Origin: Tenacibaculum sp. 190524A02b
GTDB taxonomy: Bacteria > Bacteroidota > Bacteroidia > Flavobacteriales > Flavobacteriaceae
Length of the DNA: 64,000 nt
Direction: 5' to 3'
Assembly (NCBI RefSeq): GCF_964036645.1
Contig: NZ_OZ038525.1
Coordinates: forward strand, 3,042,001-3,106,000
Positions 20,965 to 25,015 of the stretch are shown piece by piece. Below the pieces are notes generated by a model. The model saw nothing but the letters and a program-made list of their open reading frames with translations, made no database searches and had not been told where the DNA came from. The first letter of the stretch is position 1. Each line of letters starts with the position of its first letter. The position numbers were made by a program, and so were the translations under genes.

Positions 20965-22323
20965 TTATTTTCTTTTCTTATTACGCTTATTATAGTTTTT
21001 ATCACCTCTTGTTTTAGGCTTTTTATATTTTTTAGCAATTTCTCTTCTATAAGAGCCTCCAAGGTTTACTTTTTTATTTTTTTCTTTCTTTTCATGAAAA
21101 GCTTCTCCTGGTACATACTCTTGAGAAGTTCTATTTTTAGATTGTTGTTTATCTTCCCTAGGCCTTTCTTCTTCTGTTAACTGCTTTGATATTTCTACAT
21201 GTTCAGGAATTTCTACTAAAGGAATGGTATAATTCATTAACTCTTCTATCTGCAATTTTGCTTCCTGTTCTTTTTCAGTAGCAAAAAGTATTGATTTTCC
21301 TTTATTCTCTGCCCTACCTGTTCTTCCTATTCTATGCATATAGTTTTCAGGGTACTGAGTTGGGTTGAAGTTAATAACATGTGATATTTCTTCTAAATCC
21401 AAACCACGTGCAATAACGTCTGTAGCTATTAAAATTCTATGATTTCCTTTATTAAACTCCTCTATAGAACGTAAACGGTAGTTTTGCGTTTTATTAGAGT
21501 GTATTACACATAATTGCCCTGGAAATTCTTCTTCTAATAAATTAAAAATCCTGTCTGCATTCCTTTTATTAGGTGCAAAAACTAACACTTTTTTAAACTC
21601 CTGTTTATCAAACAACAATTCATTCAGTAAGTTTATTTTGGTGTAAAAATTAGGAACATTGTATGCAGTTTGATCTATATTATCTAAAGGTGTACCACTT
21701 ACCGCTATGGCTATTTTTTGAGGCCCAATAAAATAATCATCAATCAAGGCCTCCACATCTTCAGTCATCGTTGCTGAAAACATTACATTTTGACGTCTTT
21801 GCGGTAATAAATCAAAAATGTTTAATAATTGAAACCTAAAACCTAAATCTAACATTACATCTACTTCATCAATCACCAACTTTTGAATAGACCTTAGCTT
21901 TAAAACATTACTAATCGCTAAATCGTATAAACGTCCTGGTGTTGCTACAATAATATCTGAACCTAGTGCTACTGCTTCTTTATGCCTATTTAAATTTACA
22001 CCTCCATATACACCAATAACTCTTAGCGTGATGTATTTTGCTAATTTTTCAATCTCTTCAACTACCTGAACCACTAACTCTCTTGTTGGTACCAATATCA
22101 ACACTCTTGGGTGTAATTGTTTTGAGAATTTTAAATCTCTTAATATTGGTAAGACATAGGCAAAAGTTTTACCAGTACCCGTTTGTGCAATACCTACCAC
22201 ATCCTTTCCTGATCTAATTATAGGAAAAGCCTGTTCTTGTATTGGTGTTGGGTTTTGAAAACCCAAATCTTCAATTGAATTTCGTAATGGATTTGATAAA
22301 TCCAGCTCTAGAAAAGAAACCAT
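20965..22323 (-). CDS. DEAD-box ATP-dependent RNA helicase
   Basis: A 452-residue protein with every helicase motif: Q-motif (FQNPTPIQEQAFP), Walker A AQTGTGKT, PTRELV, TPGRL, Walker B as DEVD rather than DEAD, SAT, and HRIGRTGR in the C-terminal RecA domain. The last 75 or so residues are a Lys/Arg-rich tail ending KNYNKRNKKRK, expected to bind RNA. The cytoplasmic role is RNA remodelling such as ribosome assembly or cold-shock mRNA turnover. It is the first gene of a two-gene transcript. Confidence 0.95.
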   Translation of the reverse strand: MVSFLELDLSNPLRNSIEDLGFQNPTPIQEQAFPIIRSGKDVVGIAQTGTGKTFAYVLPILRDLKFSKQLHPRVLILVPTRELVVQVVEEIEKLAKYITLRVIGVYGGVNLNRHKEAVALGSDIIVATPGRLYDLAISNVLKLRSIQKLVIDEVDVMLDLGFRFQLLNIFDLLPQRRQNVMFSATMTEDVEALIDDYFIGPQKIAIAVSGTPLDNIDQTAYNVPNFYTKINLLNELLFDKQEFKKVLVFAPNKRNADRIFNLLEEEFPGQLCVIHSNKTQNYRLRSIEEFNKGNHRILIATDVIARGLDLEEISHVINFNPTQYPENYMHRIGRTGRAENKGKSILFATEKEQEAKLQIEELMNYTIPLVEIPEHVEISKQLTEEERPREDKQQSKNRTSQEYVPGEAFHEKKEKNKKVNLGGSYRREIAKKYKKPKTRGDKNYNKRNKKRK

Positions 22324-22339: not shown

Positions 22340-22347
22340 CAAAGGTA
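22340..22347 (-). promoter_or_regulatory. Promoter -7 box for the DEAD-box gene
   Basis: TACCTTTG on the minus strand (CAAAGGTA on plus) matches TAnnTTTG, 16 bases before the start at 22323. A TTG lies further out at 23 bases, longer than ideal. Confidence 0.5.
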
Positions 22348-22382: not shown

Positions 22383-22541
22383 TCAAGTCAGTTTGAAATT
22401 TCTATCTATCAATGATACATGTAAAAATGTAGTTTTACATTCATAACAACTATATTTTTTACTACTGATAAAAAAAAGTTTTTGAAATACTGATCTTTTC
22501 TTTCGTCTGATTAATACAGACTGACAACACGGACAATTCAT
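22383..22541 (-). CDS. Mini zinc-ribbon protein, copy A (52 residues)
   Basis: A short frame of 53 codons from ATG 22541 to TGA 22383. The protein starts MNCPCCQSVLIRRKKRS, then FQKLFFISSKKYSCYECKTTF. The CPCC at the start and CYEC near residue 32 give two CxxC knuckles about 26 residues apart, separated by a basic linker, which is a minimal zinc ribbon. It is clearly paralogous to the gene at 22621-22758 (shared CPxC, RKKR, F-x-KLF, KKY-x-CY-x-CKT). I do not know a named family; nucleic-acid binding is an inference from charge and fold. Confidence 0.72.
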   Translation of the reverse strand: MNCPCCQSVLIRRKKRSVFQKLFFISSKKYSCYECKTTFLHVSLIDRNFKLT

Positions 22542-22620
22542 TTTATTTTGTTTTTTAACCCCTTTGCAAAACTATTTAAAACAACTATCCAACACCTCAC
22601 CCTTTTCGGGTGATTTTCAC

Positions 22621-22758
22621 CTAACTTTTCAATTTTTTTCTTGAGTAAAAAACTGTTTTACAGTTATAGCATTTATACTTTTTACCTAAAAAAAGTTTTT
22701 CTAAAAAATTCCGTTTTTTTCTCTTAACTGTAGTTGATTCGCAGTTTGGACAGCTCAT
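22621..22758 (-). CDS. Mini zinc-ribbon protein, copy B (45 residues)
   Basis: A short frame of 46 codons from ATG 22758 to TAG 22621. It begins MSCPNCESTTVKRKKRN and continues FLEKLFLGKKYKCYNCKTVF, then ends in a basic tail. The CPNC and CYNC knuckles match those of copy A 79 bases downstream, with the same basic linker and KLF motif. Two related frames retaining all four Cys while differing elsewhere point to selection on protein. Both read toward the DEAD-box gene. Function is unknown. Confidence 0.75.
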   Translation of the reverse strand: MSCPNCESTTVKRKKRNFLEKLFLGKKYKCYNCKTVFYSRKKLKS

Positions 22759-22860
22759 AATATTTCATTCTGTTACGAAGTTTAAAAGAAATGTTTATTT
22801 ATTAAAGAAAAGTTTCCGAATGGTTAATTATTCCTTACAAACAACATTTAAAAAGTAAAA

Positions 22861-22884
22861 AACCGATGTAAAACTCCATCGGTT
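22861..22884 (-). terminator. Terminator after the repeat-adhesin gene
   Basis: Stem AACCGATG / CATCGGTT with an 8-base loop, 37 bases beyond the stop at 22922 on the minus strand and followed there by a T run. Confidence 0.85.
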
Positions 22885-22921
22885 CTTATTTTTCTATTCT
22901 TAACTTAACGTAAATTATCTT

Positions 22922-25015
22922 TTAATGTAAATCTACCCATGATGATTTTCCGAATTTAACTTTCATCCATAAATCTCCTGGGAATGCAAGACTCACTGTA
23001 AATGCACTTCCTCCTCCATAATCAGCAAATGGATAATAAGCACAGGATTGATCTACAAAAACAGTATATTGTTGGCCTGACACCACATTTATTGATGTTG
23101 ATAGTGTAATTTCTTGCTCTCCTGCTCCTACAGTGAATGACTGTGTATGAATTGGAGTTCCGGTAGTTGTATTTCCACTAAATATTTGTAAGGTACCTCC
23201 TGTTACTGCCGCTTGAAAGTTTAGAGCCACTTTTGTCCAAGAAGCAGTTTCTGTAACGGTAAATGATTGTCCTGCGTTTGTTAAATTCCCTTTAAAAGTG
23301 TTATGACTTATTAATAATTCCGATTCTGGAAATCCTTGGTATCCTTGAAATTTACCTGTTTCTGAATTAAAAATAACCATACCTGGTGTTTTTGGTAATG
23401 CATCTCTTTGTGCTGTACTTAAACGAGGTAAAAGTAATCCTCCTGTTGTTGAGTTTATTTCTACTGCTGCTCCTGAGTTTACCGTTGGTGTTCCTACTCC
23501 TAGCTTATTTACATTTGTTATTGACTTTCCTCCTGCGTCATTACTTTCTGTTAATACAGTACTTAATGAAGGTGTAGTTGGAGTTGTCCATGAAGTTGCA
23601 GTTCCATTTGTACTTAATACTTTTCCTGTGTTTCCTGTTTGGTCTGGTAACTCAGCATACTTACTTAAATCTACTGTGGTTGCAGATTCATTGTTCGTTA
23701 TTTTTAAATTATTACCATCTAATGATAAATCTTGAATCTCATTACTTACACTTCCATCAACTTCCGTGGTTAAATACCCATTATTGTTTACATAAGTATC
23801 AACCTGTGCTTCGGTTAACTGTGTATCTGTATTATCTAAATATCCACTTAAATCAATTTCTGTTGCAGATTCATTGTTGGTTATCTTTAACTTATTAGCT
23901 GTTAATGATAAATCTTGAATCTCATTGCTTACACTTCCATCAACCTCTGTAGTTAAATAACCATTATTGTTTGCATAATCATCTACCTGTGCTTCAGTCA
24001 ACTGTGTATCTGTATTATCTAAATATCCACTTAAATCAATTTCTGTTGCAGATTCATTATTCGTTATCCTTAACTTATTAGCTGTTAATGATAAATCTTG
24101 AATCTCATTGCTTACACTTCCATCAACTTCTGTAGTTAAATAGCCATTATTGTTTGCATAAGCATCTACCTGTGCTTCGGTTAACTGTGTATCTGTATTA
24201 TCTAAATATCCACTTAAATCAATTTCTGTTGCAGATTCATTATTCGTTATCTTTAACTTATTAGCTGTTAATGATAAATCTTGAATCTCATTGCTTACAC
24301 TTCCATCAACTTCTGTAGTTAAATAGCCATTATTGTTTGCATAAGCATCTACCTGTGCTTCGGTTAACTGTGTATCTGTATTATCTAAATATCCACTTAA
24401 ATCAATTTCTGTTGCAGATTCATTATTCGTTATCTTTAACTTATTAGCTGTTAATGATAAATCTTGAATCTCATTGCTTACACTTCCATCAACTTCGGTA
24501 GTTAAATAACCATTATTGTTTGCATAAGCATCAACTTCAGATTCTGTTAATTTGGTATCAACTGTTTGTGTAAAATCTGAAATTTGACTTTGTGTAATAG
24601 TTCCTGTAAAGTTTTTAGCTGTTTTAGCATGTAAGGCATAAGGTACACTCATTAATTGACTGGTACCAGTAATTGTATAATTTGTTCCACCTTTTGGATC
24701 TGTTTCTGTTTTTATAAAATACGTATCATTAGACCAATCTATTGTATTAAATGCTCCAGAAACATTAGTTCCTTCTCCTATTTTTAAACTAATTAAACCA
24801 TTCGTGTTTGTTAATGGTGTATGTGTTTCTGCATAAACAACTGTTCCGTTTACAGCGCCTTTTAAAATACTTATTTGTACACCTACTGACTTTTGAGTTA
24901 TTAATTTATTAGTTGCATCTCTTACAACTGCTTGGTAACTTATTTTTTCTGGTGTTTGTGCCAATAAGTTACTTGAAATCATTGCTGCTATTAACAAGGG
25001 GTAGAATTTCTTCAT
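22922..25015 (-). CDS. Secreted adhesin-like protein with five 61-residue repeats
   Basis: A 697-residue protein with a signal peptide (LLIAAMISSNLLAQ). Residues about 20-155 are the common N-terminal head of Bacteroidota tail-fibre-like proteins (ISYQAVVRDATNKLI). Then come five 61-residue repeats, each holding VDAYANNNGYLTTEVDGSV and a diverging SLTANKLKITNNESAT part. A linker (GKVLSTNGTATSW, LGVGTPTVNSGAAVEI, LPRLSTAQRDALP) and a C-terminal beta-sandwich of about 120 residues with jelly-roll-like traits follow. It is probably a surface fibre or adhesin. A T9SS-sorted small protein is encoded 4 bases upstream, so the two are coexpressed. Confidence 0.8.
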   Translation of the reverse strand: MKKFYPLLIAAMISSNLLAQTPEKISYQAVVRDATNKLITQKSVGVQISILKGAVNGTVVYAETHTPLTNTNGLISLKIGEGTNVSGAFNTIDWSNDTYFIKTETDPKGGTNYTITGTSQLMSVPYALHAKTAKNFTGTITQSQISDFTQTVDTKLTESEVDAYANNNGYLTTEVDGSVSNEIQDLSLTANKLKITNNESATEIDLSGYLDNTDTQLTEAQVDAYANNNGYLTTEVDGSVSNEIQDLSLTANKLKITNNESATEIDLSGYLDNTDTQLTEAQVDAYANNNGYLTTEVDGSVSNEIQDLSLTANKLRITNNESATEIDLSGYLDNTDTQLTEAQVDDYANNNGYLTTEVDGSVSNEIQDLSLTANKLKITNNESATEIDLSGYLDNTDTQLTEAQVDTYVNNNGYLTTEVDGSVSNEIQDLSLDGNNLKITNNESATTVDLSKYAELPDQTGNTGKVLSTNGTATSWTTPTTPSLSTVLTESNDAGGKSITNVNKLGVGTPTVNSGAAVEINSTTGGLLLPRLSTAQRDALPKTPGMVIFNSETGKFQGYQGFPESELLISHNTFKGNLTNAGQSFTVTETASWTKVALNFQAAVTGGTLQIFSGNTTTGTPIHTQSFTVGAGEQEITLSTSINVVSGQQYTVFVDQSCAYYPFADYGGGSAFTVSLAFPGDLWMKVKFGKSSWVDLH
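23636..24550 (-). repeat. Five tandem 183-bp repeats in the adhesin-like gene
   Basis: Units of exactly 183 bp occupy 24550-24368, 24367-24185, 24184-24002, 24001-23819 and 23818-23636. The marker cttccatcaac recurs at 23751, 23934, 24117, 24300 and 24483. Inner units are nearly identical; the outermost diverge, as expected from unequal crossing-over or slippage. Confidence 0.95.

Follow-up and report, generated by a model that had tools for sequence, protein, structure and literature searches.

Two unannotated zinc-ribbon microprotein genes, one of them a probable target of a LuxR/NarL-type two-component system

RESULTS

Two small genes beside a DEAD-box helicase gene

The window, by which we mean the whole stretch of DNA analysed (64,000 nucleotides), carries two short minus-strand frames, here called ORF-A and ORF-B, flanked by a 697-aa adhesin-like gene and a DEAD-box helicase gene. 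The features of the locus, in window positions, are as follows:

20965..22323, minus strand: RhlE/CshA-like DEAD-box helicase gene, neighbour of ORF-B, a candidate partner in one reading
22340..22347, minus strand: TACCTTTG, probable -7 element belonging to the helicase gene itself, recognised by eye and also present in genome G002
22383..22541, minus strand: ORF-B, ATG to stop, 52-aa zinc-ribbon microprotein gene and probable target of a LuxR/NarL-type two-component system
22567..22574, minus strand: TAGTTTTG, -7 element (TAnnTTTG), beginning 33 nt upstream of the ORF-B start codon and 22 nt past the palindrome
22597..22613, no strand: palindrome TCACCC-N5-GGGTGA, probable operator of the ORF-B promoter, beginning 7 bases after the ORF-A stop
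22621..22758, minus strand: ORF-A, ATG to stop, 45-aa four-Cys zinc-ribbon microprotein gene with no operator-like element upstream
22858..22887, minus strand: terminator-like hairpin separating the upstream adhesin-like gene from ORF-A

The frames had been proposed by a sequence-only reading of this DNA, and both have the coordinates and lengths it gave. The common plan that it described, with CPxC, RKKR, KLF and KKYxCYxCKT, is present in both proteins, except that its F-x-KLF fits ORF-B only, because ORF-A has F-L-E-K-L-F; ORF-B also has a fifth cysteine (CPCC). A frame of at least 38 aa with the pattern M..CPxC-(18-30)-CxxC occurs twice in the window and in none of 150 Markov-1 random windows of like composition. 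Differences between ORF-A and ORF-B fall 15/9/22 on the three codon positions (37 codons), with silent sites saturated. The adhesin-like gene (22922-25015) contains near-identical repeats and has a weak mosaic-adhesive-trimer match, below the cut-off, and a marginal CVNH match. Upstream of ORF-A lies TTCGGAAAC (22812-22820, minus strand), and the motif TTCGGAAA[CG] recurs in six more helicase-locus regions, 58-122 nt 5' of whichever family gene comes first.

A microprotein family concentrated in the genus

Searches of 166 genomes of the genus gave a family match in 115 (E<=0.01), while in the genome of the window (G000) ORF-A and ORF-B are the sole two members, the third match having an E of 4.25. 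Across the bacterial family 13 of 299 genomes match (E<=0.001), two of them in the genus and four through a DUF2007-like protein, and across the phylum 15 of 375, four of them in the genus; the four-Cys microproteins are thus a family concentrated in the genus. Relatives with a genus name on record are Polaribacter, some records giving only Flavobacteriaceae or Bacteroidia. There are two main flavours, the first of 41-65 aa, resembling the window genes and often located 5' of the helicase gene, and the second of 51 aa (MKxCPxCKS), found alone or up to four in a row, which in 32 of 36 named loci faces a gene that we take, without a family scan, to be rseP-like.

The sequence-only reading held that the proteins are under selection, and named lost frames or cysteines in relatives, or DNA changes lacking codon-position bias, as grounds for giving it up. 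When this was examined, relatives were found to keep the frames, and all four cysteines (C3, C6, C30 and C33 of full-length ORF-A) are kept in 21 helicase-type sequences, aligned with ORF-A and ORF-B lacking their first Met. Substitutions between family members fall mostly on silent sites: among helicase-type pairs with at least 62% identity, which leave out ORF-A and ORF-B as too divergent, dN/dS was computable for 17 of 22 and ranged from 0.03 to 0.28, silent sites being saturated in the other five. When pairs of every type were pooled (dS<1.5; 1094 pairs, not independent of one another), the median dN/dS was 0.18. The family is therefore under purifying selection.

That genes of this size escape gene callers also proved correct. 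As a single query, ORF-B (used rather than ORF-A) found no candidate sharing three 5-residue words among 5.8 billion proteins. A profile of the 21 helicase-type sequences retrieved two proteins at E<=0.001 (from 344 candidates out of the 5.8 billion), each 44% identical to ORF-B, and a mixed profile of 22 retrieved 53, of which those named by their source are a hypothetical protein or uncharacterized protein; absence in such profile searches is no proof, because they sample words. We are practically certain that both frames are real, functional, unannotated protein-coding genes; their short length and near-absence from the protein database would suit chance open frames in AT-rich intergenic DNA, which are extremely improbable given the retained cysteines, the low dN/dS and the empty random windows.

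The duplication proposed to join ORF-A and ORF-B fared less well: a poorly resolved family tree (54 columns) leaves them unpaired and lends no support to a recent duplication, a single clade being unrejected (p-AU 0.077), and the same tree gives no demonstration that the operator-bearing family genes form one clade. Elsewhere, at G163:C7:71028-71986, a pair of nearly identical family genes separated by about 0.8 kb represents a recent duplication. A phage origin was considered and set aside, the 51-aa-type alignment, the sole one tried, having no relative in viral contigs and the structural model of ORF-B giving no Foldseek match among viral models at E<=0.001. Keyword literature searches listed no report on the microprotein family, no paper on Polaribacter zinc ribbons, and nothing joining zinc fingers, response regulators and connectors.

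Predicted properties of the proteins

Zinc binding by ORF-A and ORF-B is predicted from their cysteine knuckles. Neither protein, searched without its first Met, reaches a Pfam cut-off: PF12760 (Zn_ribbon_IS1595) gives 17.0 bits for ORF-A and 10.2 for ORF-B against a gathering cut-off of 25.4. With the same sequences, the NCBIfam zinc-ribbon families score 15.3 bits versus a cut-off of 61 and 15.1 versus 20.9 for ORF-A, and at best 11.1 versus 28 for ORF-B. The AlphaFold2 model of ORF-B has a mean pLDDT of 86.9 and resembles the NrdR and Dof zinc domains with weak Z, and the microproteins are basic (pI 9.8-10.0); from this charge and the weakly matched model, binding to DNA or RNA is possible. 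A PDB sequence search returned mainly C2H2 finger arrays, taken for a repeat artefact.

A palindrome at near-fixed distance from a -7 element

Upstream of ORF-B the order is TCACCCGAAAAGGGTGA, 22 nt and TAGTTTTG, the latter fitting TAnnTTTG, presumably the -7 consensus of the Bacteroidota type. The palindrome has nine sites in its own genome versus none for the reversed pattern, all nine with a 5-base centre in a search permitting 3-7, and 35 sites in 12 of the 166 genus genomes versus two control sites. When TAnnTTTG was sought within 60 nt on either side of 34 exact sites, 26 of 27 occurrences lay at 21 or 22 nt; in the own genome eight of nine sites have it 21-22 nt on, the exception being the site of a 61-aa peptide described below. 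A free scan of 119 family upstreams gave 22 TAnnTTTG versus 18 expected (5 versus 2.5 when TTG was added), and since this is near expectation the promoter claim rests on the palindrome-anchored spacing. Judged as a target of this element, ORF-B has the exact palindrome at 22 nt, and the element is absent upstream of ORF-A and of most of the family. An unmatched control set, 36 named loci from other genus genomes with 848 kb of strand sequence, contained no element hit. The helicase and family loci, totalling 768 kb, gave six, a figure that includes the family-gene elements and counts some twice; the reversed pattern gave zero and one hits, respectively.

The palindrome could instead be an intrinsic terminator of ORF-A, as its sequence can fold into a hairpin and lies 7 bases past the ORF-A stop codon. 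We rejected this very unlikely reading on the invariable 5-base centre, the near-fixed 21-22-nt spacing to the -7 element and a terminator scan that omits the palindrome; moreover, the ORF-B strand has no T-run after it and an identical element precedes a kinase gene.

The kinase, the response regulator and other genes behind the palindrome

This kinase gene lies outside the window:

G000:C1:2944208-2947060: kinase gene in which Reg_prop, HisKA_3 and HATPase_c pass their cut-offs and Y_Y_Y does not

The palindrome stands 46 nt before it, and the gene that follows encodes a Response_reg plus GerE protein, that is, a response regulator of the LuxR/NarL type. Kinase matches were found in 16 of 166 genomes at the original cut of E<=1e-60 and in 12 at E<=1e-180, a cut chosen after sight of a gap in the match list. 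The palindrome and the kinase (E<=1e-180) each occur in 12 of 166 genomes and together in 10, with a Fisher p of 1.3e-12 that is uncorrected for kinship and only a guide because the genomes are related; the same 10 genomes combine site and kinase at the 1e-60 cut. G022 has a palindrome site and no kinase match, and G049 has the kinase with an element of two mismatches only. Seven genomes (G000, G002, G041, G084, G153, G168 and G172) have an exact palindrome within the 200 bp ahead of the kinase match. Inspected by eye, the -7 element on this side fits the consensus in G000 and G084; at 21 nt it departs by a single letter, with GA or AA in place of TA, in G002, G153, G168 and G172, and in G041 none can be recognised.

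Own-genome sites also precede genes for an M61 peptidase, for secreted-looking proteins of 1520 and 1048 aa (no family scan), for an 893-aa protein with G8 and sorting-tail domains, and for proteins of 1201 aa (no scan) and 858 aa (LRR, DUF7619). Five palindromes fall within 11 kb (G000:C1:2947107-2957863), before the kinase, the M61 peptidase and three large secreted-looking proteins, and this stretch is a regulon island. At G000:C1:4723355 (locus L197, 3114-3299) the palindrome is followed by an unannotated 61-aa frame with a GGG stretch and four cysteines, possibly a secreted peptide. Six short peptides with Gly-Gly-like leaders follow sites in four related genomes (three in G002, one each in G084, G122 and G172); of five scanned, two have no NCBIfam match and three score under curated cut-offs of the bacteriocin-leader type, so the double-glycine label is a deduction. 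In G041 and G002 a site is followed by a protein of about 225 aa, the two looking related; the one scanned matches FeeM (N-acyl amino acid synthase) below threshold (E 0.063), which would make a signal-molecule synthase possible. Further site-associated proteins are Spo0M-like (E 1.7e-9) and cadherin/LRR, each with an unscanned look-alike in another genome.

Family genes wired to the element or near the kinase

The 12 kinase genomes were examined together with G042 and G169, both added because their family gene has the element; of the 33 family places in these 14 genomes, 25 were scanned, then five more, and three were left out. A palindrome with at most two mismatches precedes 10 of the 25 family genes, with a gap to TAnnTT of exactly 22 nt in a search allowing 20-23, and these are one in each of 10 genomes:

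Helicase locus: ORF-B in G000, and genes in G002, G042 and G169
Divergent from the kinase: G011, G153 and G163
After the regulator: G168
Elsewhere: G041 and G049

G011 and G153 count as one lineage because they have the same protein. Eight of the 12 kinase genomes thus have an element-bearing family gene, and in the other four (G076, G084, G122 and G172) no family gene is preceded by an element of its own. In G042 and G169 the element precedes the family gene and there is no kinase match; the five further family loci showed no element. In G172 a site before a Gly-Gly peptide gene is followed by a hairpin and then a family gene (by eye). Five of the 12 kinase genomes (G011, G153, G163, G168 and G172) have a family gene less than 0.9 kb away from the kinase (218-840 bp), versus a chance expectation of 0.04 over the 12, calculated with family-gene numbers entered by hand.

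A second palindrome upstream of the 51-aa type

Upstreams of the 51-aa type were reduced to 50 by dropping near-copies and those without a -7-like element. All nine exact cases of GTA-N4-TAC lie 35 or 36 nt before the -7 element, versus at most one at any offset in shuffles. AGGTA-N4-TAC plus the -7 element gave 65 hits in 50 of 166 genomes versus eight control hits. Among 30 such loci, three precede a family gene and seven (L295, L300, L301, L307, L308, L315 and L321) a gene that we presume to be acyl-CoA/AMP-ligase-like; the remainder have no frame within 300 nt, a chance-like frame or an unrelated gene. The GTA-N4-TAC promoters constitute a regulon distinct from that of TCACCC-N5-GGGTGA.

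DISCUSSION

Computation establishes two real and conserved genes, an element with its spacing, and the co-occurrence and adjacency of the kinase, and on these grounds we consider it highly probable that ORF-B belongs to the kinase/regulator regulon. We infer that the regulator controls the element promoters because the site stands before the kinase gene and the two co-occur. ORF-A and ORF-B are members of a genus-wide family of basic, predicted zinc-ribbon microproteins. ORF-B would be transcribed from its own promoter, which is probably activated when the response regulator of the Reg_prop/HisKA_3 kinase and REC-GerE regulator pair binds TCACCC-N5-GGGTGA, immediately upstream of the -7 element. 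Other genes probably under the control of this pair are its own, those of the large secreted proteins and, in related genomes, those of the short peptides with double-glycine-like leaders. The ORF-B protein would then most likely act inside the cell, as a connector within the regulon that binds nucleic acid or protein. That ORF-B is a small regulator or effector in this regulon is, as a whole, the explanation that we moderately favour; its molecular role as a connector or nucleic-acid binder is put forward tentatively, the connector being suggested by gene position only.

Alternatively, ORF-B could play no regulatory role and be a purely passive target, a housekeeping or stress protein that binds metal and happens to belong to the regulon. 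In favour of this, the family also occurs outside the regulon, by the rseP-like gene and behind another type of palindrome. However, the kinase has a family gene nearby in five of 12 genomes, and the element-bearing genes number one in each of 10 genomes, at different places; this looks like selection for wiring to the system, and we hold the passive reading to be a serious if doubtful contender.

Partnership with the adjacent helicase, as suggested by the sequence-only reading, gains no support. The DEAD-box helicase gene does adjoin the frames on the same strand, 59 bp after ORF-B, the proteins are basic, and of 43 located helicase loci (out of 49 scanned, from the genomes with the most similar helicases) 16 have a family gene in the 3.5 kb upstream. 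However, the helicase matches at E<=1e-140 in 153 of the 166 genus genomes, such a gene is missing from that interval in the other 27 located loci, and the helicase has its own promoter-like element after ORF-B, in the window and in G002. Family genes also sit at several unrelated places, by the rseP-like gene, a histidine kinase or elsewhere. On the helicase distribution, these unrelated sites and the locus counts we rejected RNA- or DNA-binding partnership as the main reading; it is quite unlikely, and the helicase is probably a neighbour only.

Returning to ORF-B as a regulator or effector, a wider and frankly unlikely extension is that these microproteins are dedicated connectors of the LuxR/NarL-type system in Polaribacter and relatives, passing the state of that system on to control, at the RNA or DNA level, of a programme of peptide competition and surface adhesion, with others wired to a second regulator (GTA-N4-TAC type of site) in the same geometry, about 30.5 nt from the palindrome centre to the -7 element. 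A microprotein family nearly invisible to annotation gains a testable regulatory address, consisting of a palindrome, a kinase-regulator pair and a co-regulated gene set. Conserved promoter elements can thus assign roles to genes missed by annotation, and the system is a defined one in which to ask what single zinc-ribbon microproteins do in bacteria.

Among known systems, the transposase zinc ribbons of IS1595/InsA (PF12760, PF03811) give the top Pfam score for ORF-A (17.0 bits), and PF12760 matches 18 of 22 members weakly (E<=0.1, ORF-A and ORF-B without the first Met), but the scores are under the cut-off (25.4) and the transposase domain is absent. NrdR repressors have an ATP-cone domain after the zinc ribbon, whereas ORF-B stops at residue 52 and no ATP-cone family is among its Pfam matches. 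The proteins of related genomes that we call DUF2007-like, after what we take to be the domain N-terminal to the ribbon, have a similar CPxC...CxxC ribbon after KLFPFF or the like; unlike the family, they carry it within a protein of about 125 aa, and profile scores are just about 20-25 bits. Such proteins lie 6-9 kb from a CPHCGSS-type family gene on the same contig in G011, G153, G122 and G172. With LuxR/NarL-type regulons that have autoregulated kinase genes, the likeness extends to REC plus GerE, a palindromic site and near-fixed promoter spacing; keyword literature searches, which did not cover the palindrome itself, listed no zinc-ribbon microprotein as a target of such regulons. According to two papers, the zinc-finger microproteins of Haloferax volcanii have fewer than 70 aa and two C(P)XCG motifs, are free-standing and number many per genome (PMC6562870; PMC11241148), and 12 of 16 deletion mutants had a phenotype, including biofilm and swarming (PMC6562870); AlphaFold2 cannot decide zinc binding, according to the second (PMC11241148). 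ORF-A and ORF-B are likewise small with two CxxC knuckles, and no homology is claimed; they lack the Gly after either knuckle that the C(P)XCG definition includes (PMC11241148). Unlike the haloarchaeal proteins, they are bacterial, have a long basic middle and, in the case of ORF-B, are probably tied to a two-component regulon.
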